Shown piece after piece: positions 3,673-51,193 of a stretch of 58,451 bases of DNA. The position numbers and the translations under genes are program-made. Source of the DNA: Zarea fungicola (lineage: Eukaryota; Ascomycota; Sordariomycetes; Hypocreales; Cordycipitaceae); assembly GCA_900169235.1 (NCBI GenBank), contig FWCC01000055.1, positions 562 to 59,012 on the forward strand, written 5' to 3'. Each line of letters starts with the position of its first letter. Within the stretch, counting starts at the first letter, position 1. Under the pieces are notes generated by a model. That model made no database searches. It saw only the letters and a list, made by a program, of their open reading frames with translations, and was not told the DNA's origin.

Positions 3673-5968
3673 CTATGCTAGTTGGGGTTGTAATCCCAGC
3701 GCCGCGAAAAACGCAGTTGTGTCGTCTGGCGGATATCCTAGAAAATCCTTCAGCAGCGTATATTCGTCCTCGCTTCCGCCTTTCTGCAGAATCTCCCGCC
3801 GAAACTTGTTCCACGTCCGCTTTGCTCGCGGGTCCGTCGCAAATAGGCTGCTCGCCAAATTGGCAGCCACAACATCCGCACTACAAAACTCGCCTGTCAG
3901 AAATTCACCGAGCGGAGAGGAGAGCAGACGGCCAGACTCACTAGATGTATGTATAGTACCCCGCATCGTAGTCCGAGACCAGGTGCCCAAACTCGACGTG
4001 GAAAGTGGCGCTGGTCAGTGGCGTGATCATGGATGTGACACGGCAGTACACATCCCGCCATACCTCGGCCTCGTTCATGTCGAGCAAGGCCTGGTGAGTG
4101 GGAGGTGTATGCACAGCCATATCGAATAGACAAAGAATACTGAGATAATGGTCAGATAACTCCCCAATTATGGGATGAATTGCATAATAGCTTACAGCTG
4201 TCCTGTTGTATTATATCGCTTTGTTGAGGCCTGCTGCTTGAGCTGTGTCTTCAAAATATCGTCCGGAATTTCTGTAGTTGGGCGGTCAAAGCGCTGGGTT
4301 TCCGTCACGCCAGAAGCTGGCGTGAAAGAATAGTGGCAGCTCATAGCTTTAAGTTCCCGCTTATTCCATGCCCACTGTTCAAATGCAAACGCGATTGCCT
4401 CACCCAGCTCTCGTTTAACATTGTAGCCATGCTGTTTGGCAAAGCTGGTGCGGGCGAGCAGATCATGTAAGCTATGTCCAAATTCTAGAAGATATCAGAA
4501 TGGACTGGCTTATATATAAAAGACTCGATATATACCGTGAAATAGAGTACGAATATTACCGTGCTCAAGCAGATAGTTATGATCTGGTGCTGATGTATCG
4601 AAACAGCACATAAGTAAGTTGGCTGGATAGACCTGGGTTAAATCCTCTCTTATATATCCCTAGAGAAAAATGATACTTAGATGCATATCCTATAAGAGAG
4701 TCAAAAAGTCTTACCGGTCCTAGATTAACACTTTGGTTGCCTTTATACTTATGTGGTCGATCTTGCAAATCCGCCAAAAAATACCCAATGAAGCTATTAC
4801 TGCTGGGCTCACGGTCCCACACTGCCCATCCCTTTACCTCCTTGGGCCAATTGGCCTCGAGCAGTGACTCTGCCGTGATGGGCTCGAATTTTAGCCCAAA
4901 TAGATCTTGAGCTAGTATTATCATCATTTGGACCGTGTGCCAAAGAGGAAAATACTCTGCAAACTTGGTTGCCCTGGCAACATTACTCTCCTGGGCCAGC
5001 TTTGCTTTGTTATAGGCTTTGTCCCATGGCTGAGTTGTGATATTTTCTTCCTTCTTTTTCGGGGACTTGGAGGCTGTTAATTTACTTCTGGAAGTAGCTT
5101 GTCTGTGCTGCTGTAACGCGTCCAGGGTAGATGCTAATAGCTTATTGACAGCAGCGATCGATAGTGGGAGGCGGTCTCGAAGCCGTAACTCAGCATGATT
5201 CTCGAATCCAAGAAGACGAGCGTTCTCATCGCGCAGGATAAGAATTTCTTTGAATAGAGAAATATTCTGCGTGTAGCGGCTGGAGTGGATTTCGTACATT
5301 TTCTTCCGAATATCTGTGCTGTGTGCTCGCTGCATGACGGTATCGTAGTTACCAGTATAGGGAACGCGGAGTTTTGCTGGCTGACTGTCCTCTTCAATGA
5401 GCTCTGTGTTCTGTAACCGATCTAAAATTTCGTCAAGCTCGTTGATATTAGCGTCTATGCTGCGATCCTCCCCACGAAGGTTGCGTAGAAACATGACGCT
5501 AAGCTGCTTAATACTGTCCTTGTTTGCCTGGATCTTCTTGGCTGAAGGGCCGTGCATGCCGCCAACGCCTAGGCCTTGTAGATCAGACAGCATTTTATCA
5601 ACTAGCCTTATTACTTGTGTTTGTTGCTGCGAGCTGTTTGCCCTTGCGGAGGCAATGAGTGAATAAATCCCCTTGCGTTGGCCATTGCCCACTTCTTGCC
5701 ACAGCGCCTCCGCCCCCTCGCACTTTATTTGAACACGCAAAACGGGTGAGCAGTACTTAAGCGCCAGAATCAAGGCGCGTTCGCTTGCTTGTGAATTTTC
5801 AAGATGTGCAATAGCAAGCACGGTGTTTTCAAGCGTTGCGTTGTCATGGCTTACACTAGTAAGGATATGGTCCAGCAGTTGAGTATATGCTGCAGCATGT
5901 CGTTGGGCGATCGTCGGAATTTCGTCTTCAGTTGGAGCGCGCGGAAGCTCCTGAGGAGGTAGAGCCAT
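3673..5968 (-). CDS. M3-family zinc metallopeptidase (MepB/saccharolysin/thimet oligopeptidase type)
   Basis: Five exons (5968-4715, 4659-4536, 4484-4196, 4139-3942, 3880-3673) keep frame and give a 690-residue protein, the usual length for cytosolic fungal M3 oligopeptidases. Exons 2 and 3 join to form the HEFGH zinc site at residues 459-463. A downstream Glu (GEA, about residue 488) fits the third zinc ligand. The C-terminal family signatures are also present: HLVSDYDAGYYTYIY, then a REIL..GGS segment and FLGYPP. These enzymes cut short peptides, generally under about 20 residues. An in-frame ATG at 6034 would add 22 residues; I prefer 5968 because the family-like N-terminus (PPQELPRAPTEDEI) follows directly. 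The gene looks intact. It lies next to the peptide cluster, and a role in processing peptides there is only a suggestion. Confidence 0.9.
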
Positions 5969-6242
5969 CGATGGTTGTCTGTCTTGAGGAAAAACACGAA
6001 TGAAGGCGCTGTTACCTGCGACCGTGATAAGCATGTGCGAAAAGTATGATGGATGCGGGTTGCAATTTATGCATGCAGCTCAGCTACGCAAGGTAAACTT
6101 GAAGCGCCGAAAGGCCGAGTTAGGTGGTTAGCCAGAGGTTACAAAACTACGGGCGCTCACTCATCAGCGTCACGCATTAGTTGGTTAGCTACATGGGTCA
6201 TATCATTATACTGTAGAGAAAGCCGTTTATTTTGTCAATTTG

Positions 6243-7007
6243 TTAAGCATCTATTTCGGCACCATACTGAAGCAGCAACTCAGCTATTGAGTCAAGTCCG
6301 TTCTCTGCAACGTAGTGTAAAACTGCTTTGCCCCATATATCCTTACAGTTAATATCTATAGACGCGTCTAATAAAGCTTTGACAATATCCTCCTTCCCGC
6401 TTCTTGCAGCGTAGAATAATGCCGTTTGTCCAGTCGCGTCCCGCGCATTAAGGTCCGCGAAGCTTTCCAATATTATTCTGACCATGTCTGCCTGAGCAGA
6501 CTGAGCAGCGAAGTGCAACGCGGTGAGTCCATTAGAATCGCGTTTCATGGGATTCGCACCCTTCTCCAGAAGTAAACGAACCATCGAATCTCTCCCGGCC
6601 ACCAGAGCCAAATGAAGTGGAGTTTGGTTGTGGCTTATGCTATCCAAAGGCTCTATTGACATATACATCTCACCCCCACCCCATGGCGAGTCTTCAATGT
6701 CGATGGCCGTAGGCGACGGGCTGATATCGCATACCAAACTACTTTGGGTCAGTGCTTGCGACAGAGAAGTGTCTTGTGGTGGAGTTTCGAGCGAAGCGGG
6801 TGCAGTATCGGGGTTGGGCAGGCTTTGCTCTTCGGGGCCCTTTGTCTGGTTTAGTGCCGCTTCTAGAGCTCTGATTTTCTTCTTCTGGTTGATTCCTTGC
6901 ATAAAAATTAGGTACAGATGTACGAGATCAGATGTTTTTCACTTACGGTAATTGCGTTGCGCATTTCTATTTTGCTCCTTTTTCTTTTCTTTGCGGATGT
7001 CGTCCAT
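6243..7007 (-). CDS. bANK transcription factor: bZIP basic region plus four ankyrin repeats (TOXE-like)
   Basis: Two exons (7007-6947 and 6895-6243) give 237 residues. Exon 1 plus the start of exon 2 encode a bZIP-type basic region, QNRNAQRNYR followed by INQKKKIRALE. No leucine heptads follow, so there is no zipper. Four ankyrin repeats begin at about residue 109 (QTPLHLALVAGRD, LTALHFAAQ, QTALFYAARSG, KAVLHYVAENG) and run to the stop. Basic region plus ankyrin without a zipper defines the bANK family. Its known members, TOXE (HC-toxin) and the apicidin F regulator, control cyclic-peptide clusters. The gene is therefore a good candidate for the pathway regulator of the adjacent enzymes. The acceptor is AAG rather than CAG/TAG, but it is the only one near that keeps phase. 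Confidence 0.8.
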
Positions 7008-8356
7008 TGATAAAATGTGCTGTGGTCACCTTCCTGGTAAGTTTCCGAGGTAGATAACATGCGTACCCTGTCATATTACAATTTGGCTTCGGCATGAAGC
7101 AGTCGTTTATATCGGTAACGGCACAATCGGCCAGGCTCTGTACAGATAACATGCGCATGGCTTCCCGAACTAGTGCTTGCCTCTGCTTTACGGCTGGGAT
7201 AGACTCACACAAGTTACACAATATGCGATTTTCGCATCCATCATTGGCATAGATTTAATTTTACACCTCGCTTTTACAATACTATGTCGCTGAAATATAC
7301 AAAACATTTCCACGAGTACAGCGCAGTACCTCTGTGAGTTACTCTACAAAGCGCCGTGAATAGCGTCAGAGAACTTCCTGGGGATCTACCAACAAGAATA
7401 CAGGGTCGTCCAAGCGTCAGCAACTTTGTGTAGACAAAAGGGTTACTTACTGACCCATACAATAACCCGCCCCGGGAAATTTTCAATCTAAATTAGTGGA
7501 CGATGGATCAACGTATATAGCTAATGGATTGCTGCGCGTTCAATCTGAACTTCTCGTTTTACGAATCAAAACCCAAGGGTAGATGCCTGTCTTCTCGTGA
7601 TGCCTTTTGCTTACCGTATTGGTAAGCCTGAATCGCTTCAACTCTTGCCGTTATAGCCGGCTGGAACCTAGCTAATTATGAGATTGGCCTCGTGAGCAAG
7701 TCGAATAACGGAAGAACCACCCATGACCGAATCCTACGGTAGCCTAACGGCCTAAGGCTCTACCTGATCGTAGAGCAACTCGTGGGCAACTCTCATCAAG
7801 ACCTACCTAGCGACCGAGCTAGACTACGCTGGCTACTAATTAACTTCATCCACGTATCGGTCAGCGCCACCTGCACGGCCTCCCACCTGCACGGCCTCCC
7901 ACCTGCACGGCCTCCCATCTGCACGGCCTCCCATCTGCACGGCCTCCCATCTGCACGGCCTCCCATCTGCACGGCCTCTCCGTGCATGGCATGCATTGTC
8001 CAGACCGCAAACGCGATCGCCGCCGCCGCCCCCCCCCCATCTGCCTGTTTTCCGTGGCCATCGCCACGGTTTTGAAGGCGTTCTGCGACTGAAGAGGACG
8101 GTTTGAGTTACAGTACGATAACGACATTTTCATCCGATAAAAATACTTGTTTTTGGGGATTGTCATGCGCCAAGTTTCATGATAACTATGCTCTATTGGT
8201 CAGGAATTTGGTGTTCTTCAATATCGATTGGTTAGCCTGGGATGTGGTGCCTCTACCCTTAATGTCGACTAATCTATCGCTGAGACGAAAATTGCAACAA
8301 TTATTTTCAAGTTCAAACAAGATATTCCATCCATCAGAGTATACGATAAGGTGCTA
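7008..8356. other. Intergenic region containing a minisatellite
   Basis: This is the promoter side of the bANK gene and the 3' side of prolyl hydroxylase 1. Apart from the 16-bp tandem repeat at 7869-7980 and a GCC/poly-C tract just after it (about 8020-8040), I see no gene. Open frames across the repeat exist only because the unit itself has no stops. Confidence 0.4.
7869..7980. repeat. 16-bp minisatellite, seven copies
   Basis: Seven tandem copies of a 16-bp unit lie here. The first three read acctgcacggcctccc, the next three change the second base to t (atctg...), and the seventh ends ctctc. Homogeneous blocks of each variant indicate recent slippage or unequal exchange. Because 16 is not a multiple of 3, every reading frame shows a 16-residue period; the apparent peptide repeat is not evidence of coding. 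Confidence 0.95.
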
Positions 8357-9244
8357 TTATAGCCCAGAATTGGCTCCAAGCATAGGCGTGTCATAGAAGT
8401 AATAACTAAATAAGTTAAGCCCGATCTTAACCCCACTCTCCACGGGGAGGCCGGCATGCGCCACTCGAACATCGCCGCTACCATTGGCGTGGAGGTTGTT
8501 CCAAAAGACTGCGTTCCCTTTCTTAGGTTTCACTAGAAGACCCTGTCCGGTGTCTGTGATCGAGAACTTGCTCTTGTCAGCTGTTGTAGATACGCCGCTA
8601 ACGTGCGGAAAGTATGTCTCTCCGCCAATGCAATCGTCTGACAAATAGGCAAATATGCTTGCTTGTCGATTGTAGGAGCGAAAGCGCTTGGATGGATTGT
8701 CGGAATGGTTCATTGGTACATCAAACCAGTCCGCATGAACCTTGAATAGCTCACTGGGCTCATATTTTACAACCTGTATCCCCTCGATCTCTGCATGTTG
8801 AACATTGCCAAGGATGGACTTCATGCGCTGGGAGAGTCGCTGGCTGATAGTGTCATTCTGCGGGATCATAGCCGACTTTGATGAGCGATACTGTCGATTT
8901 TGAACCGCCTCCATGTTTCCGTCATAGACATAAGAGCCATGGAAGCGGTCTTCTCTGTGCTGGTGTTAGCTGACTGCACCCGCGCGTCCGTCACAGCACG
9001 CTTACGTTGTGTGAATGAGATGATTTATCTCTTCCTCAAGAAGGAAATCATTGATGTAGAATATCAAAGGGTCGATTGAGAGTAGCTCAATGGTGAATCT
9101 ATGCTCGATATCAACACTGTTCGTGGTGCTCGATGGCGAACGTAGCCCAACCCAAGACGACCCTGGTAACATATTCCACAATCGCGCGACACTCAAAAGG
9201 AGTGTACAAGCTGGGAAGAGCAAAAATGTTTTGAATTGAGTCAT
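8357..9244 (-). CDS. Prolyl 4-hydroxylase-like 2OG-Fe(II) oxygenase (copy 1)
   Basis: Two exons (9244-9006, 8954-8357) give 278 residues. The N-terminus has a hydrophobic stretch (FLLFPACTLLLSVARLW), so the protein is probably a type II membrane protein of the secretory pathway. The P4H core is complete: iron ligands H153 and D155 in VHADWFD, H246 in VAHAGLP, and the 2-oxoglutarate-binding K256. The GGETYFP motif is also present. The family hydroxylates peptidyl proline or, in some cases, other side chains, using O2 and 2-oxoglutarate. It is transcribed away from the acyltransferase gene, with about 650 bp between them. A second, divergent copy lies at 15066-15909. The presence of two lumenal prolyl hydroxylases beside UstYa oxidases suggests a secreted peptide substrate (inference). 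Confidence 0.88.
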
Positions 9245-9892
9245 CTGTTATTGTTAGCTATAGTCAATTTGGTATGCCGTAGGTATAGGCCAAAAGACAT
9301 TTGTGAAGGCATTTCCTAAAATATGTTTCATTCGGGCAGGGTTGTTTCAAATGGTGAACATACTGTCTTAACTGCGTATAATATGTGTTGATAGGATCTG
9401 TTCATTCCTTGGATTACGTTTTGGCGTTGGCTTACGTGGAAAGTCGAACCGCAGCTAGCCTGCAAGGCACTGCCAACCCTGAATATTACTGGAAGACGCC
9501 TTACGTAATTATTGATGCTTTTCTATGTAACTGCATTACCACCATCAAGCATGAAAGATTTCGCCTTAGCCTTTAACATGATGATCATTTCTCTAGCTGC
9601 CAAGTCTCTAACATTGATGCATACTGGGGGCAGTGCAATGGAGTGCGCCAAATTTTACCAAGCACTTCATCACTACCCACCCGGAGCAGGTAGTCTAGTG
9701 AACGTACATTCTAATAGATTGGGATTTGGTACATTAAGTTGTCCTGGAATCGAACTTTCATACTGTATTGCCCCTCTTTCCCTCTTTGATGGGTTAACTA
9801 CACCAGCTACTCCCTCCGTCGGCCTCTTGGATATCCCAATGTCCCAAGCAGATGCTTCTTTTATAGCCCCAATTATAGAAAAAAGAGACACA
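9245..9892. promoter_or_regulatory. Divergent promoter, prolyl hydroxylase 1 / acyltransferase
   Basis: About 650 bp separate the two divergent starts. The acyltransferase frame stays open upstream to 9512, so part of this stretch could be 5' coding sequence. No specific operator was recognised. Confidence 0.35.
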
Positions 9893-11231
9893 ATGCAAAA
9901 ACCGAGCGCCCACAGTCCGGCGCAGATTCGCTGGTTGCAAGGCCTACGGGGCCTTGCGGCTCTGCTAGTCTACTGGCATCATCATCAACTATGGGCACAT
10001 CGGAACTTCCCGCAAATGGAGCTGGCGTTTGGTTTTCAGAAAAGATTCTTTTTCAGTACGGTTCCAATCATTCGGACTTTTTTTACTGGAGGTCATTTTG
10101 CCGTTGCTTTGCTCTTTGTTATCTCGGGCTTCGCATTATCAATTAAGCCTTTGAGAGCGTGTCGTCTCAATGATTCCGCTGCTCTCGTCGACTCTCTCGC
10201 AACCTCAATCTTCTGCCGATGGAGCCGGCTTTATCTACCCTTAGCACTTGTTACTCTCGTACATGTGACGTTATGGTATGTGCCATTATTGGGCATACAT
10301 ATGAAGCCAGAATGGGCCGACGAGAGATGGCTGCCAGAAGTGTTCTTGCTTACCAAAGCATTAACAAAGTACTCGTTCATTTTCGATTTTGGAGATCCAT
10401 GGCTCCGATACAATGACTTCCTCTGGTGTATAACGCCTGAGTTTCGAGGTTCCTTGATCGTGTATCTTTCTATCTTGAGTCTTTCCAGGCTCTCGCGACG
10501 GTCCCGTTCATTATCCATGACGTGCCTTATAATATACTTTTTATTCTTTGTTGATGGGTATGTCAACTCACAAACTGGTATTCACGATACTAATGCGGCG
10601 TAGATGGTATTGTGCTCTTTTCCTGAGTGGAGCAGTAATCTGCGAAAATAGCACGGCCCCTCTTGATCAAGCCCCTTCACAATGCCGGGAAACCCCGCTG
10701 CCACATTTTCTATGTTGCATACCGATCCTATATTTAGCAAATGTACCACATGTTACAGCAGAGAATCTTTCGCGAATGCCTGGCTGGAAGTTTCTATCGC
10801 ATCTCAGCCCCAGCATAATGGAAGACCAAAAGTGGTTCTTTCTCTTCTGGCCGACATCTGCTACGTTGTTCATCGTTACACGAACAAAGAAGCTGCAGAA
10901 ATATCTTGAGAATAAGTGGTTGCTGTATCTCGGTCATGTTTCATATGGGCTATTCCTTGTCCATGGGCCTATTTTATGGACACTTGGCACCTTGCTGTAT
11001 CGCCAGTGTAACATGTTCGGACCGTACTCTCGTCGCCAGCATGACCATGAAAGCTCCAAGGTAGAAGGTGGATATTTTTGCTCAGGCGTGATCGGGCTCG
11101 AGTTTGGGTTTCTCTGCAGTCAATTACTACTGTTACCGTTAAGCCTTGGGACTGCGCAACTTGCCACTAATTACATCATCGAGCCCATCTCTAGCAGGAG
11201 CCTTCGCTTATATCGATACTTAATAATTTGA
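9893..11231 (+). CDS. Acyltransferase 3 family integral membrane protein
   Basis: Two exons (9893-10557 and 10604-11231) join in frame across an intron with an actaat branch site, giving about 430 residues from the ATG at 9893. The signature RWLQGLRGLAALLVYWHHH opens the domain, and FAVALLFVISGFALS follows. Several hydrophobic segments and the C-terminal YLGHVSYGLFLVHGPI motif complete it. Fungal members acylate small molecules or sugars at membranes; the acyl donor and acceptor are not predictable here. It sits between a prolyl hydroxylase and the candidate precursor peptide, so transfer of an acyl group to a peptide product is possible but unproven. The start is uncertain: the frame is open to 9512, but the upstream residues look unlike the family. 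Confidence 0.82.
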
Positions 11232-12074
11232 CAGATGACGATCGTGGCGTGATTGGAAGCAAATATTCAAGTCTTACATAACCTCAATACTCTCCATTGA
11301 TAGAAATACGATGAATTTTATTATTGTAGCATCGAGATGTTTCGAGGAAGCTGCATGTTTTGTAGCAACTCTTCTGACAGGGACACGTTTCCTGCAACTG
11401 GCAGATTCGACCCAACTGTAAATCAAGTTCGGCTCTCTTTAATTTTGCGGACGTTCACGCTCCAAAACAATAGATCATAAGTGATGGAGACAGTTTCCAC
11501 GTATTTACCTCTAAGTGGAACGAAAAACACCCTAATATACAACTGATGTCACGACTCACGTCGATTCAAGTGCTAGACGATGGCGAATTAAGGACGAGAT
11601 GGCGGCGTGCAGTGGGCTAGATAGGACCTCCTCCTCTCTAGTGATCAATAGAGTCATTACTATCAATTTACAGCTATATTCTAGCCTTCGTCTTGCTATC
11701 TACCCCACAACCTTCGTGCTGGCCCCAACGTCCCTGACAACTTCGCAACCCCACACATTAGCTTTCCCATACTCATTTGAGAATACATTTCTTCCTTGGT
11801 AGCCGGAGCTACGAAATTATCTTATACAATATCGCGCTTCACAGGAAGGTTAAGTTCTAGCAAACAGTTGGCATTATCAGGGCTAATGAAATACGGTTAT
11901 ATACCTCTATAGCTAGCTACCTAAGGATACTAACCTCATCCGGGCGGGACATCGAACGGTATTGGCGGTATTGTAGTAGGTTTAGTGCCCCTGGCCTTGA
12001 CCTGCTGCGCCGTGAGTTAGTACTGTTTACTATTTAATAAGTCAGGTGGCAAGTTGGTACCTACGGAGACGTCG
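11232..12074. other. Intergenic
   Basis: Convergent 3' region of the acyltransferase (+) and the candidate precursor gene (-). Short unconserved frames only; no gene is supported. Confidence 0.35.
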
Positions 12075-12344
12075 CTAGACGGTCTTCTCTTCGGCCTCGA
12101 TGTCGCCTGTCTGAATATCTGCCTCAACGAGCTTATAGTATCCAATAGGTACAGGTACAGGGGAATTAGGAGCTTTTCAGTTAGCTGGATATGTTTCTTA
12201 AGACGCAATGAAAGACCTACGTGCGTTGCTTCGCCTGAACTGACCAATCTGGGCTTCTAACTTTGCACGGTCCAGCAGTGATGGCACTCCGGCAAGGCAC
12301 AAGGAAGCCGACGCCAGAATGTAGATGAGCCGATTGGCGTGCAT
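12075..12344 (-). CDS. Candidate secreted RiPP precursor peptide, 73 residues
   Basis: Exon 1 (12344-12221) encodes a signal peptide (MHANRLIYILASASLCLAG) and a short linker ending QFRRSNA. A 48-nt intron (12220-12173) has donor GTAGGT, branch GCTAAC and acceptor AAG, and keeps phase. Exon 2 (12172-12075) encodes a Pro-rich stretch, PPNSPVPVPIGYYK, and an acidic tail (EADIQTGDIEAEE). A Kex2-like RR precedes SNAPPNSPVPVPIGYY. Dikaritin precursors (ustiloxin, phomopsin, asperipin types) are likewise secreted, Kex2-processed and carry Tyr/Phe cores; unlike them, only one core copy is seen. The gene lies between the acyltransferase and UstYa 2, on the same strand as UstYa 2. The gene model is mine, built on splice logic, and the role is inferred. 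It could instead be an unrelated small secreted protein. Confidence 0.55.
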
Positions 12345-13063
12345 AATTTCAAAATTTGGATATATTTTGTAATATCTCAATTATAAATCGTTTTGTTTTG
12401 TTTGTACTCTCGTGTTCCTGTTTTTGGGTGCCTGATTTTGTATTATATAACTAGCTCAAGAATCTGAGCTGGGGTATATAATACTTCAGCGCCGATAGAG
12501 TGATTCCTATGACTCATACCTTATCTTGGACTGTATTCCGCTGCTAAAAAGGTATTTTCTTACTTAGTTTTCCCAGTTTAGGTAATCATAGTAATATGAC
12601 CTGGTGGCGATTACTTAATGCACCTAGTGACGTAAACTCGAGCGAAGGCGGTACTAAGCTTCATAGCTGATAAGTAGTGAACTAGCCTGATGTGTTGAAC
12701 CCGCCATTTTAACTAGTAGTGATGCACCGCATTGTTGGTGTGACTCGGTTAGCTAAGTTAGGTAAATTCCTAGTAATGCTATTAGTTGTTTATTTGAATT
12801 CCCTCGTGTCTTGTGAACCTTCCTGTCATGACTAGGATGGCAACCGAGATAGTTTACGAATGTACTCTCTTGACACTTATGAGGCGTTTGAACTTCATCG
12901 TTGACTACGATAATATATTACGATTCGTACTTGACGATGTCGCCGTAGCTTTAGGCGAGTCACGAGGGGTTTCTATTAGCGTAAGGACGAGATATTTGCA
13001 TAATATCAAACTCCAAGTTATTATCTCCTGTTTCAATCTCCTCTGCTGTAGAAATAGAGTACG
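12345..13063. other. Intergenic, promoter of the candidate precursor
   Basis: The sequence just upstream of the precursor ATG is A/T-rich in both strands (for example ttataatt near 12380), compatible with a promoter. An 84-codon frame at 12813-13067 (+) matches nothing I know and overlaps the end of UstYa 2; I do not call it. Confidence 0.35.
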
Positions 13064-14145
13064 CTAATGACCGAGTCTTTTCAATCGCTCAGCATTTTTT
13101 GACTTCCTACTCGCATTAGCGGCATCGCGGCTGAACGCCCAGTCGCGAATCTCTTCAAAATTACGGCATGTGTGTTGACTTGGCCACTCTGGCATCTCGA
13201 TTTTCGTATTTTCGTCATACAGTACAGGCTCTACTGTCAAGTCCCCAGCACACATGATGCTCTCCCGTAGTCTATCTAGGCAGTGGTCTGCCTCATGTTA
13301 GCCATAAACAGTCCTTTTTCGTCATTGGTGACGTACCAATGTGGACAGGAAGCCGCTTGTCTGTCACCAGCTCTTGGTATGGCTCAGGTTTTATGTATTG
13401 TCGTACCAGGTTCTAGATGTTTATCAGGTACGAAATTGCTTGCTAAGAGAATGCTTCACTTACGACGCAGTGTAATTCATGAGCCACAGATAATCTGGTA
13501 TACATGTCAGCGGTTTGTTTAACGCTTGTGCCAAAATCTGAAGCTTGTACCTTCCTCTGTAGAGTTCGAACTCTGCATCGAACACTATATTTTTGGCGGA
13601 AAAAAGCTGTGCTTCAGCAGGAGTAATCCATACCTCGATCGCTACGGAGTCATTAGTAGGCTCAACTACTATTAAACCAAAACAAGCCTACCAGGCAGAA
13701 GATCTCTCCAGGCGGCATCAATGTCCGCAATTGCTCCGGTGAAGTACTCGGGTGTAGTCTGCAATCGAACGTAATCCCCAGTAGAGTTTGTGATAACGCG
13801 TGATTGATACATTTTCTTTTGCCAAACTGCTGAAAGCTGCCTTGTAGCTGGACCTTTTTTTTTTTCTGGTTAGTCAGGAACGTGAGGGCTGCTCGACCGA
13901 CACTCTCGCTAGGCAAGTTGCTTCTCACCAAATTCGCTCAGGCGCCAAAATCCTTGCGTCTTATTCGCATGTCGAACGTCCAAGTCTTTAATCATAACTC
14001 CTGTCAGGGTGCCTGCAGAGAAAATTGCCAGCCCGACGGCGAATCCCCCTAACCGGATCCAAGCTCTTGTTTGAATTCTGCGCTTGGCTCTCTGTTCTGC
14101 TAAAAGCCAGAGGCCTTCCTCGTTACCCACACTTGGCACGCTCAT
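13064..14145 (-). CDS. UstYa-family (DUF3328) oxidase, copy 2
   Basis: Six exons (14145-13929, 13865-13692, 13641-13551, 13494-13464, 13412-13337, 13287-13064) keep frame throughout and give 270 residues. Exon 1 carries a single membrane helix (GFAVGLAIFSAGTLTGVMI). Then come the family elements: ADIDAAWRDLL, the first metal motif HELHC (exon 4), NLVRQYI, and the second motif HIDHC formed across the exon 5/6 junction, followed by LRESIMCAGD. UstYa proteins catalyse oxidative cyclisation, hydroxylation or chlorination in ustiloxin, asperipin-type and cyclochlorotine pathways. They act in the secretory route or on membranes. Exons 4 and 5 (31 and 76 nt) match those of the copy at 16382-17513 exactly in length, so the two are paralogues. 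No defect is seen. Confidence 0.88.
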
Positions 14146-15065
14146 CGTTGCTGGTATGTGGAGTGAGAAATCTTCAGTGCAATTTTCCTCATTTCGCAGT
14201 CTTGAGAAATGAAAAGAGACAGTTGAAAGATCAAGGTTTGAGAGTCGGCGTTTCTAGCTTGGTGTTAGCCTATTCGTCGCCGGCGTTGAAGCCATCCAGT
14301 AAGGCACGCAATCGACTGCAGGCTAACCCAAAAAAAAAAAAGGGAAAGAGAGTGCTAGCAGCGTAAGTCACTCTAATTAGATAATTCTGGTTGTCTGAAT
14401 AGACCACCTCATTGTTGGTAATACGCATTACTTAGATTTTGGGTGGAGCTCTTATACTATTACTATGCAGACTCTTACCAGTCGCCAGCGGCGTCTCCGT
14501 CTATATTAGATAATGAGGGCGGATACACTACGTAGTTATTGGGAGTAGTGATGGTTACGTCGTAGCTACTTGCAATTTACATGACTGATATAATACTTTC
14601 TGGAAAACAACCAAGTTCAAGCCTTTGGGGAAGATGGTCTTCCACCCACAAGGGTTCAGGGACAAATCATCTATACATAGGAGTGGCTTACTACGGCTCC
14701 GTTGCTCTGCGGTGCATCTGGGGCTGGGAATATTATTGTTCAGAGTCCTACTTCTTGCAATCTACAGCACAGGTGCTTGGTTTTCCCATTAGTGGTCGTC
14801 TTACTAGACAGCGACGAGTCATTCTCCTACATAGGCCGTTGAAGCTGCTACCCTCCGTTCTCCTCTGCCACTTTACCTCTTGCTTCACTGCAACTGTCAT
14901 CTTAGTCTGAAGGCACTTTAAAGTTTATTCCCGGGCTATAGTCGCCCTTCTAAGCCCGAAGCAGCTCCAGTTAAGCTTGCCGGAAAATAATTGAAGTATG
15001 AACAGATAGATGTTTTAGCATCGGGAAAGGAAAATCGAAATTTGTAATACTGTGGCTATAATCTA
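14146..15065. other. Intergenic, promoter of UstYa 2
   Basis: Upstream of UstYa 2 and downstream of prolyl hydroxylase 2. It contains an A11 run at 14329-14340 and a 109-codon frame (14581-14910, +) without recognisable features, which I do not call. Confidence 0.35.
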
Positions 15066-15909
15066 TCATCGCAGCGACTCTGTCGACATATTTCTCCATG
15101 AATGATCCCATGACCAAATATTCAGGCCGACTTTTTCACCACTGCGAACGGGCAATGACGCATGCCTTGTGCTAAGATGGGGAGTGCCATTTGAGGCGAA
15201 ATTTTCCCAAAAGATGGCGGCTCCTTTTCTTGGCTTGAAGGTGACGCCCGGATAATCCTCATCTTCATCACCTTCACAGACAATGAATCGGCACCATGCT
15301 TTATTGGCGGGCGGCAAAAGAAAGGGGAAGTTGGTGCCTCCGCCTGTGCAGTTGTCTTTCATATAGACCATGAATGTCGACATGCGATTCCCTGGGAACC
15401 TAGGGTCGGAGTCAATCCAGTCGTAGTGATAGCTGTAAAATCCACCTTCACCGTATCGCTGCACTTTTAAAGGCTGCAGTACCGTGCTGTTGTTTCGCCA
15501 GCCTATCAGGGTCATGGCTCTCCTCGCAATGCCTTGCACCACCGCGTCGTCGTTTTTTAGCTCTGCGCTTTCAGAAATGCGATAATCATGGTCGATGTAA
15601 CCAACATCGTCAAGCCACACACGGGATTCTTGGAAATGCCCTTCACTGTCTCGTATTAGCGTGTCTAACAGTGGGGGTCGCAAATTCTTACGCTATAACC
15701 ATTAAGTGGTCAATCTCGACTGAGCTGAGGAAGTTCTGAATATAAAGAACCAAGGGTTCTGTGGAGAAGATTCGTACTTCTTGACTGGTAATGGAGGTGC
15801 AGTTGCCGATGCTTGGCTTTGAGGAAATGAAGTATACTACCGGGAGTATAATGACAGCGCCAGTGAGCCACCAGGATGGGTATCTGAACTTCACATTGGA
15901 GCCACACAT
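15066..15909 (-). CDS. Prolyl 4-hydroxylase-like 2OG-Fe(II) oxygenase (copy 2)
   Basis: Two exons (15909-15692 and 15645-15066) give 265 residues. An N-terminal hydrophobic anchor (WWLTGAVIILPVVYFISS) is followed by the P4H catalytic core: H146 and D148 in HYDWID, GGGTNFPF, H234 in RHASLPVR, and K244 in GEKVGLN. All iron and 2-oxoglutarate ligands are present. It is clearly diverged from copy 1 (8357-9244), so this is not a fresh tandem duplication; separate substrates or sites are plausible. It is transcribed head-to-head with UstYa copy 1, with only 472 bp between the starts, which points to shared control. Confidence 0.88.
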
Positions 15910-16381
15910 CTTGCCTATATCAATGTTTCGCGCAACAAATACAGAGAGACTATTTCGTGGCAGAAGGAAAGCCTTCTACGTTATAATTATCTCTCCTCTG
16001 TCACATAATGGTGTTGGTGCATTTTCCGTTACCCGACCCTGGTCGCCCCCTCTTTGCCACCACCTTACTACCAGTACCTGCAGCCGAATTACCTAATGCG
16101 ATAACGGGATGAGGAGACGTTTCGGCGGACAGTAAGCCCTCCGTTTGCAGGCAACGTCGACTTTTATTAGCTAATAACGTGCATTATATCTTACTCATTT
16201 GCTATACGCTATGTGGGGAGCTTTCCCATACCATATTTGTTCATCCTTGTTTGTGGCGGCTGAGACAAGGATGTCAAAGTCTGCCTGTATAGCCATAAGT
16301 AATTAGTGTTGTTCATTATGGCTGCCCCGACAGCCAACTGCTCGCTTTCTCCGGGACAAAAGTCAAATAACACTGCTTAGA
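15910..16381. promoter_or_regulatory. Shared divergent promoter, prolyl hydroxylase 2 / UstYa 1
   Basis: The 472 bp between the two starts are probably a bidirectional promoter. I looked for the TOX-box (ATCTCNCGNA) bound by TOXE-like factors and did not find a match here by eye. Confidence 0.4.
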
Positions 16382-17513
16382 ATGGTTTTCCTCCATGGTA
16401 AGGTCTCGCCATCGCCCTCTCCACAGCGTTCCGGGCCGATATCTGTCCTGTCGAAACCGGAAGGCGAGGACTGTCTTCCGAATGACATCGAACAACCATT
16501 CTTGGGGCCAAGATTAAAGTCACGAGTACCATGTTCCACATGTCGAAGGCGGTATCACTTTACTCTTGCCTTGGCCGTCCTGTGGGTGGTTTCGGGTTTT
16601 GCCTGGATAATCTCAGGCATCACTGCGGCGCCAAACCTGTTGATGAACAATTGTCCGCCTTTCGCTGAGAACGGTATTGGTGAGAACCTCATTTCCACTG
16701 CCCACAACAATGCACAATAGCTAAGAAAAGCTTTCAACTAGTGGATAGGGATATCTTGAAATCTTCCAACAGAGTATTTTTCAACGCGACATTAGAATTC
16801 AACAGCACACGCCAACTTCATCGCCCTCCTCTACCAGAGCTTGACTATGTTGGCACGCCTAGCGCAAGACTCGATGCGGCATGGGAAACTCTAATCGGAA
16901 GTAAGGGCACAATGTGTGCTCTGTTCTAATTACGATTGCATGGCTAATACAGCTAAGATATTGAAGTCGCGTTGTCAGAGGCGGAGGCAAAGCAGTTCCC
17001 TGGTCAGCTATATTTCGACCCCCGGACAAATGTACGAAGTGGTTTGTAAGTCAATGGCCCATTGCAAAATTTCGATGCTCTAAGTACTAAGCAATTGTGC
17101 TGTAGTGTAATGGCACATCACGATTTACATTGCTTGGTAAGCTAATTATCATGAACTACGTGCACAAGCTATAAGGTTTTAACTCCCGACGCAGAACTTG
17201 ATTCGCCAGTTCTTGTACAAAGACTTTTATCCGCAGCTTCTAGAGGAGCAAGGTACAGCAACTCACGTCGGTAGGTTCACTTGCTATTGAGAAACGCGCT
17301 TTAGCCTATGCTAAGGTAGTTGAAGACCACTGTGTGGATAGTCTCAGAGAAAGTATCATGTGCACCAGCGACGCGACAATTATCCCGATGCGATGGTCAA
17401 AATATCGGAAGTATAAGATGCCCGACTACCATGTGCAGCATTTTTGCCGTGACTATACTGCGCTCCAAAGATGGAGTGCAGCACGTCATTTCCCTGGCGC
17501 ACTAGCTCCTTAG
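16382..17513 (+). CDS. UstYa-family (DUF3328) oxidase, copy 1
   Basis: Six exons (16382 to 16673 or 16679, then 16742-16900, 16958-17045, 17106-17136, 17195-17270, 17326-17513) give about 277 residues. A single membrane helix (TLALAVLWVVSGFAWIISGI) follows a cytosolic N-terminus. The family signatures are TPSARLDAAWETLIG, HHDLHC (first HxxHC) and HVDHC (second, spliced across exons 5 and 6), with NLIRQFLYKDFYP between them. The last exon contains LRESIMCTSD. The enzyme is expected to carry out oxidative tailoring of a peptide. Phase and exon lengths match the copy at 13064-14145. Which of two donors ends exon 1 is unresolved (both are phase 1). The gene is intact. Confidence 0.88.
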
Positions 17514-18236
17514 AGCCCTAGATTAATTCTAAGCTTTAAGAAGGCCTTAATTTAAGTAAATTATATAATCTTTAGCATAGTTACTCTTTTAATTATACTC
17601 CCTCTCCTTAAAAATTAAAAATTTAGAAGCTACGTGTGTCGAGAGTATAGTTACTAGCCTACCCGGTACATTGCTGTTCTCCTTGATGATGACCTTAATT
17701 CGGTTGAGGTCAATAGACGTAGTAGTCCTGCCCGAACACAATAGTGGGGAGTAAATAGTACAATTAAAAGGTAGGGTACTTAACTGAGGGCGTGTACCCT
17801 TAGTTAAACCGACTAAGCTACCCTCAGGTGAGTGGTGGCTACTCCTTACTCAGTTTCTTCGTTTGTAACACAGCCTGCCAGAGCCCCTGCCTGGTTGTCC
17901 CTTCGCGCCGCCTTAGCCTCCTTTATCACATCCGTTTTTAACAATAGGCCGAGCGGGTAATTCCCGTCCTTATTTTTGCTTGTTACTATGTATCTTTCTT
18001 GCACCTTGTTTTAGGGTTGATCGGAAAGGTTAAGTGGGTGACTTGGGGGGTTATATTTGGCCACTAGATGCCTGCTTGGACAGGGTTTAGGTACAAGAGA
18101 ATAAAATATCCACTTTATGTAGCATTTAGAATAGACATCACTGAATACAATGCTGTTTTTTACAAATGAGAAAATTGTATTAAGGATTAGGTTGAGATAG
18201 CATTAGATCAAGATCTGAAGCTATTTCTCATCTAGG
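17514..18236. other. Intergenic, AT-rich
   Basis: Positions 17520-17640 are strongly AT-rich. Around 17880-17950 the sequence resembles, at low identity, 190-240 near the window start (gccgcct.agcctc followed by gtttgtaacaggc-like text). That suggests two mutated copies of the same dispersed repeat. No gene is seen. Confidence 0.35.
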
Positions 18237-18694
18237 TTACGACGGGCTGCATTCGCAGTTGCCGTTATCCAAGCATGCATCTTCTAGCAAGGCACCGGTC
18301 CATCTTCCACAACGTACTGGGTTGTATGTACAGTCAATTTGTCCAAGTTTGTTGCATCTGCAATATGCCATGCAAGTATCCTCGTTGACGCCGAACTTGT
18401 AAACTCCCTGCAGGTGAAGAAGAAAGCGGGTACCTTCGTCTGCCTACAAATGTTGGCCACTGTAATTATGGCAGGAAGACCCGCAAGCTGTAATTGAGCT
18501 GACGTTAACGACTTGTCATGCACATATCAAGAAGACGGCCCTACAAGTGAGTTTCTTCCCTTCGAAGAACGTTTGGAAAGATGGTTCGATGATGTGTCTG
18601 GAGTGGCCTCTCTAGCGATGGACTTATCTTCCGGCAGACTAGCAGCAAATGAAATGGCTGCGAGGCAGAGAAGATTTAGTTCGTGAAACCGCAT
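18237..18694 (-). CDS. Small secreted cysteine-rich protein (8 Cys)
   Basis: Exon 1 (18694-18545) encodes a signal peptide (MRFHELNLLCLAAISFAAS) and a short pro-segment with a Kex2-like KR (HLSKRSSKGR). Exon 2 (18407-18237) encodes 56 residues with eight cysteines, including CMAYCRC, DCTYNPVRC and NCEC. Total length is 106 residues, typical of fungal small secreted proteins and effector candidates. The acceptor (cacctgcag) is good; the donor (GTAGGG) is weak, so the exact join should be confirmed, although both flanks are phase 0. It is convergent with UstYa 1. The family is not recognised and the function is unknown. Confidence 0.6.
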
Positions 18695-19424: not shown

Positions 19425-20039
19425 ATGGTATACCTGAGTATGCGCATGCTGCCACTAGTGGCCTCTCTCTTTTCACTCTGCGCCGCCAGCTCTCTAAGCC
19501 TCCCTGTTGATGCAACAGAGGGGCTCGGCTTCCACCTTCAAGACGACGCTGGCAACATTGTTTATGTCCACCACACCGAGCTTGCCGCCTACGGCTTGAC
19601 ACTGGGCTCAAATGGTACGAGCGATGCTGGATCTGTCAACAATGACGCTAGATCGCTCACAGAGCGCGGAAACCTACCCAAAGGAGATTCGCTCAACTGC
19701 GACTGGAAGACATCCTTTGAACCCAACGACCTTCCTCTCGCCTTGGTCAAATTCTCTGACCAGCTTGGACGCCAGGGAATTACGGTGAACCAGAGTGGAA
19801 ACGCTCCCTATCAATGGGTTGCGCTGAACTATGTCTACGGTTCCGCGGTGATATACCTCTGCAACTATAGCGGAACTAACCGAAACTTTCAAGCGGCACC
19901 ACTGCTGAGCTTTTTGAAGCAGGTATATCAAAATTGCCAAACATATAATGTTGGTGGCTGGTATGCTGAGGCCTTTAACAATGTGGCTTGGGGCTATACG
20001 CAAAGCAAGGGCAAATCCTACTGCGGAGGTCCTATATGA
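19425..20039 (+). CDS. Secreted protein of unknown function, 204 residues
   Basis: This single-exon frame starts in a strong context (caccATGG). A hydrophobic signal peptide (MLPLVASLFSLCAASS) is followed by a variable linker with an N-glycosylation sequon (NGT) and then a domain from about residue 90. The mature part holds four cysteines (92, 146, 171, 200), consistent with two disulphides, and is rich in aromatic residues (YQWVALNYVYG, GGWYAEAFNN). I do not recognise the family. It may be an apoplastic or host-interaction protein, but nothing in the sequence fixes that. Confidence 0.75.
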   Translation: MVYLSMRMLPLVASLFSLCAASSLSLPVDATEGLGFHLQDDAGNIVYVHHTELAAYGLTLGSNGTSDAGSVNNDARSLTERGNLPKGDSLNCDWKTSFEPNDLPLALVKFSDQLGRQGITVNQSGNAPYQWVALNYVYGSAVIYLCNYSGTNRNFQAAPLLSFLKQVYQNCQTYNVGGWYAEAFNNVAWGYTQSKGKSYCGGPI

Positions 20040-38021: not shown

Positions 38022-39592
38022 GATGAAGATGAGCGGGTAAAAATGAATTACCGCGAATTATTTTGGTAAAGAGAGGGATGGGGCGAGGTTGCAAACCTTG
38101 GGAGTACGGCGAGTCGTGCGTGGCAGCAATGTATATTTTTCTCGTTATTGGAGGGCCCTTGATGGATTAATGCTTGGGATATCGTCTGTTTTTTTTTGTT
38201 TTGTTTGGTCCTTTGGATATCGGGTTTCTTGTTTTGTTTTGAAGTGTGGTGATACCCAGCGACGGTAGCGAGCGACTCTGTCATTCCTACCAACCACATC
38301 TTCTCTTGATACCACTCTGTTTCTTATTCATCCGCACACGCAATCTTATTCACTTTTCACAGCCAATTTCACACTCATCACCGTGCATGCTAATCCGTTT
38401 GCCTCACCCCCCCCTCTCACTCGCTCATCCAGCCACCCATCCACCCGCCAGCTGCCTGCCAGCTGGCCCTGCCCAAGTGAGTTTCAAGTGAGCTGCGTGC
38501 CAGTTCAGTTGATATAAACAATAATAAACAAACCGTTCAGCAACATTCAATCACAAGGCAGAATGGCCCAGTGGTTTCCAACGGTTCCTCAATAATTGCA
38601 GTGAATAAACCTACCCTCCCCCTGGTGCAGACGTAATTACCCTCGCATGGCAAGCCTTTCGCCGCTCTAGTGGTGGTGAGCATCCCTCGACGGACGGAGG
38701 GGTGTAGTGCTCAATCCTGCGCAGGTCTGTATGTTCACTTTGTATAGCTTAGATTCATAGTTGGGTTGTAAGAATAGCCGTACCGCTACTCTAAACGCAT
38801 GGCAAGCCCCTCCTTCGATGGAGGCACTTCATGATGTAAGGAAGTGAGTGCTCAATCCCGCGGGCAGTGCGACACATTCTGAACCGTGACATATTATCTA
38901 GGCGCGTTGAGGGACCAGGAAATCATTAGGTCGGGGCCTCCCTTGAAAGAGGTTGAAGCCGCCAGGTTGTTCCCAAATACTAGTCCGGTGATGACTTGGT
39001 TCTGTTGTTGTACCACTTTTTTTGTCGATGTGGGTGGTGCACTTGTCTATGGTGATGTCTTTCTTTTGTCCTTTGCGGGATTGTATTTTCTTTTAGGTTT
39101 AAGCTGGTTTCTTTGTTCAATTCCTGCTGCATTCGTTTTCTTTTTCTTTTTCGTTTATTCTGTTTGTAGTTGGATGCATGGTTGGCAGCTGGCAGACGGT
39201 CTGGGCGTTTGCGCGTGGTGGTTGGTGGTTAGTTATGATTTAGGCCGTGATTTTTGGCTGCTAGTAAGTAAGGTGGTGGCTTGAATGGATGGAAGAAAAA
39301 ATAATTTCTATTGCTGTTTTTCTTCTGGTTGATGGCCGGGATAGCTTGGGATGACTGGCATCATCTGGCCATCAAGGTATGTTGCTGGATTATTTAAAGA
39401 CTGGACTGCGGCCGGTTGTACTCGGCTGCTACACTGACTTGCGCACTGATTTGCACACTGACTTGCTCACTGACTTGCTCACTGTATGCATCTTTGATTG
39501 TACCACTGTTGATATCAATTGGTTTACATTCTTGTAATTACCCATTATTCGATATACATTTTACGATTAAATCACAGACCCGCGCCGTCCAG
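38022..39592. other. Intergenic with paired structured repeats
   Basis: Contains two diverged direct repeats at 38644-38721 and 38796-38862 and a 12-bp tandem repeat at about 39434-39483 (actgacttgctc-like, four imperfect copies). A 132-codon frame at 38886-39284 (+) is hydrophobic and Trp/Phe-rich but has no recognisable domain; I leave it uncalled. Confidence 0.4.
38644..38862. repeat. Two diverged repeats with conserved ends and internal hairpins
   Basis: Both copies begin cgcatggcaagcc and end agtgctcaatccYgcg (38644-38721 and 38796-38862). Between these ends the sequences differ but both can fold: copy 1 by GAGCA/TGCTC and CCCTC/GAGGG, copy 2 by CCTCC/GGAGG and CACTTC/GAAGTG. Conserved ends with changing but paired middles suggest a structured RNA or a small repeat element; neither is shown. 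Confidence 0.45.
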
Positions 39593-45319: not shown

Positions 45320-47312
45320 TTAATGTATTGAAAACGTCTCTTCCACCGCGCCTTTCACATTCAGGGCCTCGCCCTTCATCATGCCATGCACATAACACTC
45401 GCCAATTAATTTCCATCCGTCTTTTGTCCTTGGTCCTCTACGCCGCAGCACAAACGGCGCATGTCCACCATACAGCACCACTACGGTGTCTCCCGGCTCC
45501 ATAGTGTCCGGACCAAGAACGTAGTGGCCCTGTGCCGAGACGGCGAACCGCCTGTATCTCGAGATGAGCGATGCCTCATGCGACCATTTGAAGGCGTCAC
45601 CGCCTCCAGTATTGCCGAGTTCGCGAATCTCGGGGGACACGAGCGGATCGGAGGGCGACGTCGTTCGAGTTATATATGCCGCTGCATTGGCGAGATGTAC
45701 AGAGCTGGAAATCGCCGAGTGGTCGCGGCTGCGGTCAACGCCAATGCCTGCATTTGTCAAGCACTGGGCCAGGACAAAAAATGGCGACTCGACAGTCGGG
45801 TAGTATTTTCCGACCGCCGACGAGGAAGCCAGGTGCATGGGCGAATTGTGGCCGCATATTCGTTGCCAGAGCGCAGTCATGGGATGAATGGCATCGTCCC
45901 GCTGTCCGCGGATAAAGAAATTGTGGCTATGTATCACCCAAGACGCCGTATCTATGGTATCAATGTGTCGCCCTCGTATGTGTAACGTCAGCGTCTCCTT
46001 GTCTATTGTGAGCTGCGGCTTCGTTGTGCCTGCCGCCCGGTGCGGTGTGTCCGGGGACCCAAACATGTGGCGCGCCCGATGACGCCAGTCAGGAACCCAA
46101 GAAGGTAGGCCGGCCGGCGAAAAGTTTGTCGGGGCCGGAGCCGCTCCATCACTGTTGCTGAGGATCGAATTCTGCCTGCTGACAGACACCGCATCGCCAT
46201 TGTGTGTGGCAGACAACACAATGAGCGAGTCTGCACCCTCCAGTCCTCGAATAGCCACGTCGCAGTACACGTCCTCAACTGGCCGACCATAATTAGCAGC
46301 CAGACTTGTCAGTGTTGGTGTCGTACTCTTTTTGCGAAGTGAAAAGTGGCCGAGAAAGGCATAGACGCGATCTCGCGGATCCTCGGCACGCATATGCCGC
46401 GCTCGGTGCAATTCATAGATGAAGTTGCCACGCCGGTGGTATTGGTCGACAATAGCGTCTTCTGGCTCCACAAACCGGCGGTAGAGGTAGCGAATGTTGG
46501 GGGTTGCGACAGAGAAACGCGACCGTAAGTGGTGATACTTTTCGTTGAGCACCGCCACGACGTCAGAGAGCAGATCCCAACTAATTTCTGCATCGCCCCA
46601 GAACAACGTTGCCGGCGTCGTGGTCCCTATTTCTTGGACTATCCAAATACGATGAAACTAGTTCCGTTAGCTTCATATTCTGAGAAAGGTTCACGCGACA
46701 AAAGGACGAACCCAGGGCAGCAATGCCATCTTAGCCAGCGGCTTCCACAGTAAAGCACTCTGCTGATGCAGGTTATCGGAGTGTGCCTTGTGGAATATTT
46801 TTATGAGTTTCCTCGTCAGCAAAGGTGCCTTGAAGTTTCTCAATCATATTAAACGCCTCATACGCCACCCCTGCATCGTCGTGACCCAGCCAGACTAGAA
46901 TTTGCCGCGCACTCCTATACACCAGATTCATCAAGTCCACCTGTTGACTTCGCTCTTCTACGTCATTTTGGTTGATGCACACTTGATCGGCCCAGAGCCT
47001 GCGCGGCTGGTCTTGCCGTCGAAGGCGCCGCAGCGCGTCGTGGATGCTCTGCGTTATTGGGAGCACTCGTCCATCATCAAGGTGCAGCTGCTCGGTACGG
47101 CTGCGGCTGCCCCAAACATAGGAGATTGCCTCGAAATCAATCTCAGAAGCAGATTCATCAAGGGACTCGGTGCTCAGATAGCCGCGGAGTGGTTGGTCGC
47201 GGCCGTTGGCTGGATGAAGCGTCAGAATGCGAATGGACCGCGAGTCGCCAAAGGACTCGTACTGGTACACGGGCCACTTTGGCGATTCAGTCGCGATGAT
47301 TGACTCCTCCAT
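45320..47312 (-). pseudogene. HET-domain (heterokaryon incompatibility) protein, frameshifted
   Basis: The N-terminal HET domain is clear: FEAISYVWGS, SIHDALRRLR, RRLWADQVCINQND and VYRSARQILVWLGHD. After ADEETHK the frame runs into a stop. One base fewer in the T5 run at 46798-46802 (+) gives FHKAHSDNLHQQSALLWKPLAKMALLPW in frame. A 54-nt intron (46711-46658) then joins to FHRIWIVQEIG, the expected end of the domain. The C-terminal part is long and conserved, ending with the family's LIGECYVHGMMKGEA. Start to stop minus the intron is 3n+1 nt, fitting a single indel. HET proteins trigger cell death after fusion of incompatible hyphae. The gene is head-to-head with an NLR. The start at 47312 is my choice; the frame is open upstream to 47507. 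Confidence 0.85.
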
Positions 47313-47938
47313 AGGAGACTGGTTATTGCTCCGCGAAACACATTGAAGAGGCCACGATGGTTGATACGGGGAGAGAGTTGAGATCAGCATCGCGGATTTA
47401 GTGGGACGCCTAGTTCCAAGGCTGGCGGCCAAATACTGCTTCGCTACGAAGCTGCCGCTGATCTTGTAACGAGGGCCCTGTCGAGTGAAAACATGCCGTC
47501 TCATCATTATTGATGCTCCATGACAAAAAGATGGTCATTTTCCCCTTTCGCTGCCAAATCGCCCTCTGTTTTATCCAGTAAGCCCGGTAGCAAGAGGCGC
47601 AGCAAAGGATGATGGCGGCCTCCAACCACGACCGGGCCATCGCGACAGTGGCCAGATATCCACGGTAAATCCAACCACGGATCCATAAATACCAAGTAGC
47701 CGCCCACGAGAGGCCTAGCGAGGATGTTTGTACGTTTCATCGTCGCGTGTGCTCGCTCGCCCTCCTAAAGGTGCCGAGTTTTTCCATTTGCGCATAGCCT
47801 CTCAGTCACGGGCTGCGGGGTTACTGTCGTGGCGCGTAGGAGCTGAAGTTTTCATGCAGGCGGCGCTGTCGTCGAAATGTCTGCCTTTAGTGGTAGACTG
47901 CACATCATGCCCAGTTTATTCGTCCCCAAGGTCTCGGA
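47313..47938. promoter_or_regulatory. Divergent promoter of the HET / NLR pair
   Basis: The region between the start codons of the HET and NLR genes (430-630 bp depending on the HET start). Shared regulation is likely by position only; no motif was identified. Confidence 0.4.
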
Positions 47939-50900: not shown

Positions 50901-51193
50901 CTCTTTCCGCAGCAGTGAGAGCAGACAATTTACACGCAACGCGTCTTTTAATTGAATGTGGTGCGAACTGTAACAGCACCGATGTTGATGGCGTAACGCC
51001 GCTCATCTATGCGGCTCGAGGTGGCCACACGGAAGTGCTGAGAGCCCTTATTGACGTTGAAAGGGCAGACCTCGGGCATACTGACAAACATGGCCGTACT
51101 GCCCTTTCCGCCGCCAAGGAGAGTGGCAACAAAGAGACTGTCCAAGTTCTTTTAACAGAGGTGTCAAGAAGAGTGGTTACGAAGACACATTAA
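47939..51193 (+). CDS. NLR-like STAND protein: N-terminal fungal domain, NACHT, ankyrin repeats
   Basis: Two exons (47939-48286, 48347-51193) give 1064 residues. The N-terminal 250 residues form a conserved fungal STAND-associated domain (GNRFGGGRCFGPRLTNVL, GSQNLIACGVWS, MAAGRSAPRYERM, YPRSQALQSYLSEYFIV). The NACHT module has Walker A GKLGSGKS at about 295-302 and Walker B ACIIIDGLDAC at about 388-399. A winged-helix-like segment follows (ARRPLTTAECREALS). Ankyrin repeats run from about residue 880 to the end (NGRTALSIASELD, GLSPLQWAIFGE, GRSALSAAVRAD, VTPLIYAARGGH, GRTALSAAKESG). Such proteins sense non-self or perturbed self and trigger cell death or defence. No frame defect is seen, unlike its HET neighbour. 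Confidence 0.92.

Follow-up and report, generated by a model that had tools for sequence, protein, structure and literature searches.

A candidate peptide-tailoring gene cluster in Zarea fungicola that combines UstYa-family oxidases with prolyl 4-hydroxylase-type enzymes

Introduction

Dikaritin (ustiloxin-type) clusters are among the described systems closest to the gene group that we report here, which occupies positions 6243-18694 of a stretch of the genome of the ascomycete Zarea fungicola. This stretch, which we call the window, is 58,451 nucleotides long (C266:562-59012; GenBank contig FWCC01000055.1) and reaches the contig end; the genome comprises 43.1 Mb in 456 contigs. The group brings together two UstYa-family oxidases, two prolyl 4-hydroxylase-type (P4H-type) 2-oxoglutarate (2OG)-Fe(II) oxygenases, an AT3 membrane acyltransferase, a bANK regulator and a small Pro/Tyr-rich secreted peptide, a combination that would be out of the ordinary for a modified peptide of fungi. 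The enzymes probably decorate this small peptide. Our preferred reading, for which the case is evenly balanced, is that the genes would form a small cluster for a single-core, UstYa-type, ribosomally made and modified secreted peptide (RiPP) whose prolines would be hydroxylated and which might also be O-acylated.

The available text of PMC9632046 characterizes dikaritin precursors by a signal peptide and tandem repeats. Kex2 sites separate such repeats, and the products of dikaritin pathways are cyclised through side chains. Our locus resembles dikaritin clusters in the signal-like start of its candidate precursor, in a Kex-type site, in two adjoining UstYa (DUF3328) oxidases and in the Tyr of the putative core. 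It differs in having a single core instead of repeats and in adding the two P4Hs, the acyltransferase and the bANK regulator. The tyrosinase, S41 peptidase, methyltransferase and P450 of dikaritin clusters (contents according to the accessible parts of PMC6941272, PMC9233826 and PMC10512285) are not among our gene models. The original prediction for this locus had pointed to dikaritins. The link is partial: the two UstYa genes, each with HxxHC(x)24HxxHC, agree with it, whereas the candidate precursor, with one core and no Kex2 repeats, falls outside the usual definition. It would function like a dikaritin precursor, yet by the tandem-repeat definition it is no member.

Surveys of ascomycete RiPPs have so far searched for Kex2 repeats. 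In the survey by Umemura (PMC7329392, in its available text), 22% of 7878 repeat precursors adjoin DUF3328 genes; within this group, Tyr is present in 65.6% of the repeats. Another survey requires at least three repeats (PMC6339444, available text), a demand under which our candidate would be missed.

Two other systems share parts with ours. Like our oxidases, the DUF3328 enzyme CctR of cyclochlorotine carries a HxxHC(x)nHxxHC motif, reported to bind copper, and a single membrane anchor, and it is proposed to face the lumen; its substrate, however, is a non-ribosomal peptide (PMC12435403, accessible part). ToxE and Apf2 of the HC-toxin and apicidin F clusters resemble our regulator in architecture, with four ankyrin repeats behind a basic region at the N-terminus. 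Their clusters center on non-ribosomal peptide synthetases (NRPSs), whereas none is seen in our window, and the bANK factors discussed in the available text of PMC4109984 lie in or beside NRPS clusters.

Among the literature matches listed (open-licence texts, taken without figures and supplements), none describes a UstYa cluster with prolyl hydroxylases. This is weak evidence for novelty, because most subscription papers lie outside the searched literature, and the neighboring-domain figure or the supplements of PMC7329392 may contain a known P4H association. The words hydroxylase and acyltransferase are absent from the available text of PMC12048977 and PMC9233826, and the acyltransferase in that of PMC10512285 is penicillin's. 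A P4H gene of Cladosporium fulvum is named beside effector genes in PMC10823647, the accessible part of which makes no mention of a UstYa gene that we could find.

Results

The genes of the original prediction were all found in place as open spliced models, and its observation that they are grouped is confirmed. Seven models run from ATG to stop and contain 15 introns, all of them GT-AG and 46-63 nt long. The last two lines below give genes whose membership is uncertain.

7007-6947 and 6895-6243 (exons), minus strand: bANK regulator, 237 aa; spliced model, Pfam ankyrin repeats, bZIP_1 sub-threshold
9244-9006 and 8954-8357 (exons), minus strand: P4H-type 2OG-Fe(II) oxygenase A (P4Ha), 278 aa; spliced model, Pfam, PDB matches, motif
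9839-10557 and 10604-11231 (exons), plus strand: AT3 membrane acyltransferase, 448 aa; spliced model, PF01757, R-x10-H
12344-12221 and 12172-12075 (exons), minus strand: candidate peptide precursor, 73 aa; open two-exon model
13064-14145, minus strand: UstYa-family oxidase 1 (UstYa1), 270 aa, six exons; spliced model, Pfam, HELHC (166), HIDHC (195)
15909-15692 and 15645-15066 (exons), minus strand: P4H-type 2OG-Fe(II) oxygenase B (P4Hb), 265 aa; spliced model, Pfam, PDB matches, motif
16382-17513, plus strand: UstYa-family oxidase 2 (UstYa2), 279 aa, six exons; spliced model, Pfam, HDLHC (187), HVDHC (216)
18237-18694, minus strand: small Cys-rich protein of the cluster edge that begins with a signal-like stretch; intron(s) and membership uncertain
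about 3673-6079, minus strand: M3-family oligopeptidase gene beside the regulator, membership uncertain; family matches at 4207-5338, outer limits from open frames

The two P4H-type proteins reach 35.7 and 45.8 bits with 2OG-FeII_Oxy_3 (cut-off 27) in a Pfam run on selected frames from a list of those lying wholly inside the window; NCBIfam gave no match for them. The Fe/2OG site of P4Hs has the motif HxD...H...K, and both proteins carry it: HAD (153), H246 and K256 in P4Ha, HYD (146), H234 and K244 in P4Hb. Both also match solved animal, bacterial and algal prolyl 4-hydroxylases that share this motif, among them 7zsc (P4H subunit alpha-2) and 2jig, with best E values of 1.9e-15 for P4Ha and 2.2e-17 for P4Hb. 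They differ from these enzymes in their place in a fungal cluster, and Pfam gives the catalytic domain only. Motif and sequence matches mark both as P4H-type proteins, which are predicted to hydroxylate peptidyl proline. A structure prediction from a two-sequence alignment of the domain was unusable (predicted local distance difference test, pLDDT, 32). P4Ha and P4Hb are related to each other (31.5% over 219 aa), and a genome search with P4Hb as the query of the two (E up to 1) returned P4Ha as its sole match; three further genomic PF13640 proteins are too distant to show up in it. P4Hs of this type work in the endoplasmic reticulum (ER), and the three N-glycosylation sequons of P4Ha and five of P4Hb are in keeping with a lumenal location.

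The UstYa profile scores 115.7 bits in UstYa1 and 125.7 bits in UstYa2 (cut-off 25). Both genes have six exons at parallel positions, and both proteins hold the complete double motif, the second half of which depends on the splice site that was chosen. HxxHC pairs were also noticed by eye in three frames of another locus, L026 (C182:53500-61255); outside the cluster, one of these frames gives the genome's best match to UstYa2 (31%).

R-x10-H is a motif of AT3 enzymes, which carry acyl groups across membranes. Our AT3 protein matches Acyl_transf_3 (PF01757) with 74.2 bits (cut-off 31) and has the motif, RGLAALLVYWHH, at residue 37.

Signal or membrane segments had been predicted for all products other than the regulator. 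This holds for the precursor, UstYa1, UstYa2 and AT3, which reach a Kyte-Doolittle mean of at least 1.6 over 19 residues; in P4Ha and P4Hb the N-terminal hydrophobic stretches are short and stay below 1.6. The absence of NRPS and polyketide synthase genes, also predicted, agrees with the frames listed for the window, the largest of which encodes a 953 aa NACHT/ankyrin protein.

How likely is it that such genes meet by chance? Genome-wide, PF13640 has 5 places, and this cluster accounts for 2 of these. PF01757 gives 8 matches that merge to 6 loci (1 here), and PF11807 gives 55 matches that merge to 39 loci on 32 contigs (2 loci here). Genome-wide, P4H, AT3 and UstYa profile matches share a contig only here; neither the 3 other P4H contigs nor the 5 other AT3 contigs have a UstYa match. 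If 5 P4H genes were placed at random, two of them would be no more than 7 kb apart with P = 0.003; the number of P4H genes expected at up to 3 kb from any UstYa locus is 0.03. Hence, a grouping of P4H, AT3 and UstYa genes by chance is unlikely. That each gene might instead belong to a separate, unrelated orthologue group elsewhere is not what we see within this genome: P4Hb finds P4Ha only, and the precursor finds nothing.

The candidate precursor begins with the hydrophobic, signal-like stretch, has RR at residues 37-38, continues with SNAPPNSPVPVPIGYYK and ends in an acidic tail. In the segment after RR, a run of nine residues (PPNSPVPVP) contains five prolines and is followed by IGYY. The prolines would suit the P4Hs and the tyrosines the UstYa enzymes, and these residues stand side by side. 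Its intron measures 48 nt, a multiple of three, and has a CTAAC element near the end; the unspliced frame runs into stops. No Pfam family scores above its cut-off in the protein. We rejected the idea that the gap that holds it (11240-13080) is a repeat: just about 11540-11748 matches elsewhere, a dispersed repeat of ~200 bp with 16 other genomic matches at 69-82% identity, and the precursor lies outside it. The other signal-like small open reading frames (ORFs) outside the models, in unspliced frames, are a 36-aa ORF at 11311-11421 and the Cys-rich gene.

Repeat precursors of the usual kind do occur in this genome. From the 39 merged UstYa loci we took 14 stretches around other UstYa matches (L035, the contig end, has none). 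A crude scan of their unspliced frames flagged 5, of which 4 are, by eye, signal-bearing or Kex2-spaced repeat proteins; the remaining 10 of the 14 stretches may still hold repeat proteins. Tyr-containing Kex2 repeat proteins lie near UstYa matches at L022 (C439:44000-53999), L024 (C230:147500-157499), L027 (C163:48000-57999) and L031 (C162:92000-101999), and the organism therefore probably runs UstYa-type peptide pathways. In the window itself, the same scan revealed no secreted protein with Kex2 repeats. Its two flagged frames there (at 44949 within the Gcd10p frame, and a basic frame at 39228) were judged by eye to be no precursors. The top-scoring array in 1-25000, at 7867-7978, is a minisatellite that has seven units of 16 bp and lies between the regulator and P4Ha; none of its frames shows dibasic spacing.

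The regulator had been called TOXE-type (bANK, basic region plus ankyrin), which fits. Factors of this type combine four ankyrin repeats with a bZIP-type basic region at the N-terminus that lacks a leucine zipper. Its ankyrin repeats score 106 bits (cut-off 21.1) in four Ank stretches, and an N-terminal basic region, placed partly by inspection, weakly matches bZIP_1 at residues 4-33 (16.7 bits against a cut-off of 27.6). Of 524 candidates from a genome search with the protein, 150 were scored, and numerous ankyrin proteins came up among them. The genome may contain a second bANK gene, because the short first exon, which encodes the basic region, was not matched even at its own gene.

Promoter sequences give a lead at most. 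In exact form, variants aside, the Api-box TGACGTGA is absent from the whole window, and the Tox-box is absent from the cluster, with a single match far off at 46370. The hexamer TTACGT has 5 sites in 3 of the 5 cluster intergenic regions against 0.7 expected (P 0.0007, uncorrected for the many words tried); it is absent upstream of the regulator and in the P4Hb/UstYa2 promoter. We treat this enrichment as a lead only.

Discussion

This locus is best interpreted as a peptide-tailoring cluster, and that interpretation is partly supported: the enzymes look intact, and their combination occurs once in the genome among the matches found. What we observe directly is the gene set, the catalytic motifs, the open two-exon precursor model and the single genomic occurrence of the grouping. 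From these we infer the following pathway. The bANK factor would turn the cluster on, and the 73-aa precursor would enter the ER through its signal-like start. Along the secretory route, P4Ha and P4Hb could hydroxylate the prolines of PPNSPVPVP, while the two UstYa copper oxidases, judging by their family, may oxidize or cross-link the adjacent Tyr/Ile. AT3 might pass an acyl group through the membrane to one of the newly formed hydroxyls, and a Kex2-type protease would cleave after RR and release the peptide. Chemistry and topology would agree in this scheme: the lumen-facing proposal for CctR, ER-located P4Hs, acyl transfer across the membrane and a precursor that would travel the same route. 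The order of steps, the modified sites and the products are all conjectural.

Several points weigh against the single-core reading, and we regard the precursor assignment as its weakest link. The 73-aa protein offers a single core and a single dibasic site, lacks repeats and had no other match in a genome search at E values up to 10. Among random 33-mers with 6% Pro, 0.1% contain five prolines in a stretch of nine residues, and the codon score of the precursor is above that of 98.2% of small non-coding ORFs (95% when only synonymous choice is counted) and coincides with the median of coding pieces; yet the ORF was picked after the fact, as one short gene in a 1.8-kb gap, and these figures make the case look better than it is. 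The codon measure, trained on 61 long ORFs of the genome from which the coding comparison pieces were also drawn, is itself weak, because undoubted cluster genes score below the precursor (0.113): P4Hb has 0.026, P4Ha 0.020, the bANK gene 0.015 and AT3 -0.113. The models also lack the S41 protease, the tyrosinase and the transporter named for ustiloxin and phomopsin clusters. Finally, the junction of the last UstYa intron was picked among possible sites since it restores the second HxxHC motif. The choice is supported by the 15 of 55 genomic PF11807 matches, UstYa1 and UstYa2 among them, that start at profile positions 160-167, which is the outcome expected of a conserved intron there.

The cluster could be real and act on a substrate other than the 73-aa protein, a peptide made elsewhere: for instance, one assembled by an NRPS encoded at a different locus, or a Kex2 repeat protein of another UstYa locus. 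We consider this rather unlikely, though far from negligible. CctR hydroxylates a non-ribosomal cyclic peptide, cyclochlorotine (PMC12435403, accessible part), the location of bANK factors in or beside NRPS clusters (PMC4109984, available text) would fit a peptide from elsewhere, and Kex2 repeat precursors are present at other UstYa loci of this genome. However, the small 73-aa protein, rich in Pro and Tyr and signal-like at its start, is encoded mid-cluster between the enzyme genes, and no frame of NRPS size is present in the window, which is the part of the genome that was searched for one. That the enzymes decorate the Cys-rich protein at 18694-18237, or some other secreted protein, seems to us very improbable. 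Its signal-like start, the KR dibasic site ahead of its Cys-rich part and its position next to UstYa2 would suit such a role, but its gene structure is uncertain, the readings that we obtained are not Pro-rich and ~0.7 kb in which no gene was found separates it from UstYa2.

One could also argue that there is no single cluster, and that a UstYa pair and a group of P4H and AT3 genes came to lie side by side by accident in a gene-poor region. The intergenic gaps are indeed long, one of them with the ~200-bp dispersed repeat, and no exact 7-, 8- or 9-mer is common to all five cluster intergenic regions. The gene order speaks otherwise: P4Hb lies between UstYa1 and UstYa2, and P4Ha, its only protein match, lies beyond AT3 and the precursor. 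Together with the genomic counts, which make a chance grouping unlikely, this leaves accidental adjacency improbable in our view.

If the single-core reading is right, we can tentatively go one step further and envisage a new class of fungal RiPPs, a proposal that we ourselves consider less likely than not. Such a class would combine a single-core secreted precursor, a Pro-rich core hydroxylated by two lumenal collagen-type P4Hs, O-acylation of hydroxyproline by AT3, Tyr oxidation by a UstYa pair and control by a bANK factor. Kex2-repeat surveys would miss it because the precursor has no repeats. A UstYa pathway that has a single core and includes prolyl hydroxylases would broaden the targets of genome mining. 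Peptidyl-proline hydroxylation, and possibly acyl-hydroxyproline, would enter fungal RiPP chemistry, and bANK regulators, known from NRPS clusters, would be tied to a ribosomal route. Plants use hydroxyproline-containing peptides in wall proteins and hormones; if the class exists, mimicry of host peptides is conceivable. The prediction is concrete, as it names a defined peptide sequence with searchable mass shifts.

Neighboring genes

The M3 oligopeptidase gene, which the original prediction had not listed, adjoins the regulator, and its HEFGH motif was read by eye across an intron. The case for it as a specific partner of the cluster is weak: the family has about 17 genomic places (matches merged by hand), and a comparison by eye found no M3 match within 40 kb of a UstYa match on other contigs. 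For the Cys-rich protein at the other edge, Pfam and NCBIfam gave no match with one of several possible models. Next to the cluster, the plus strand encodes a ~200-aa protein with a signal-like start at 19425-20036, for which Pfam and NCBIfam also gave no match. Farther away in the window there are a HET-domain frame (46773-47534, minus strand) and a NACHT-ankyrin, NLR-like protein (48332-51193, plus strand).

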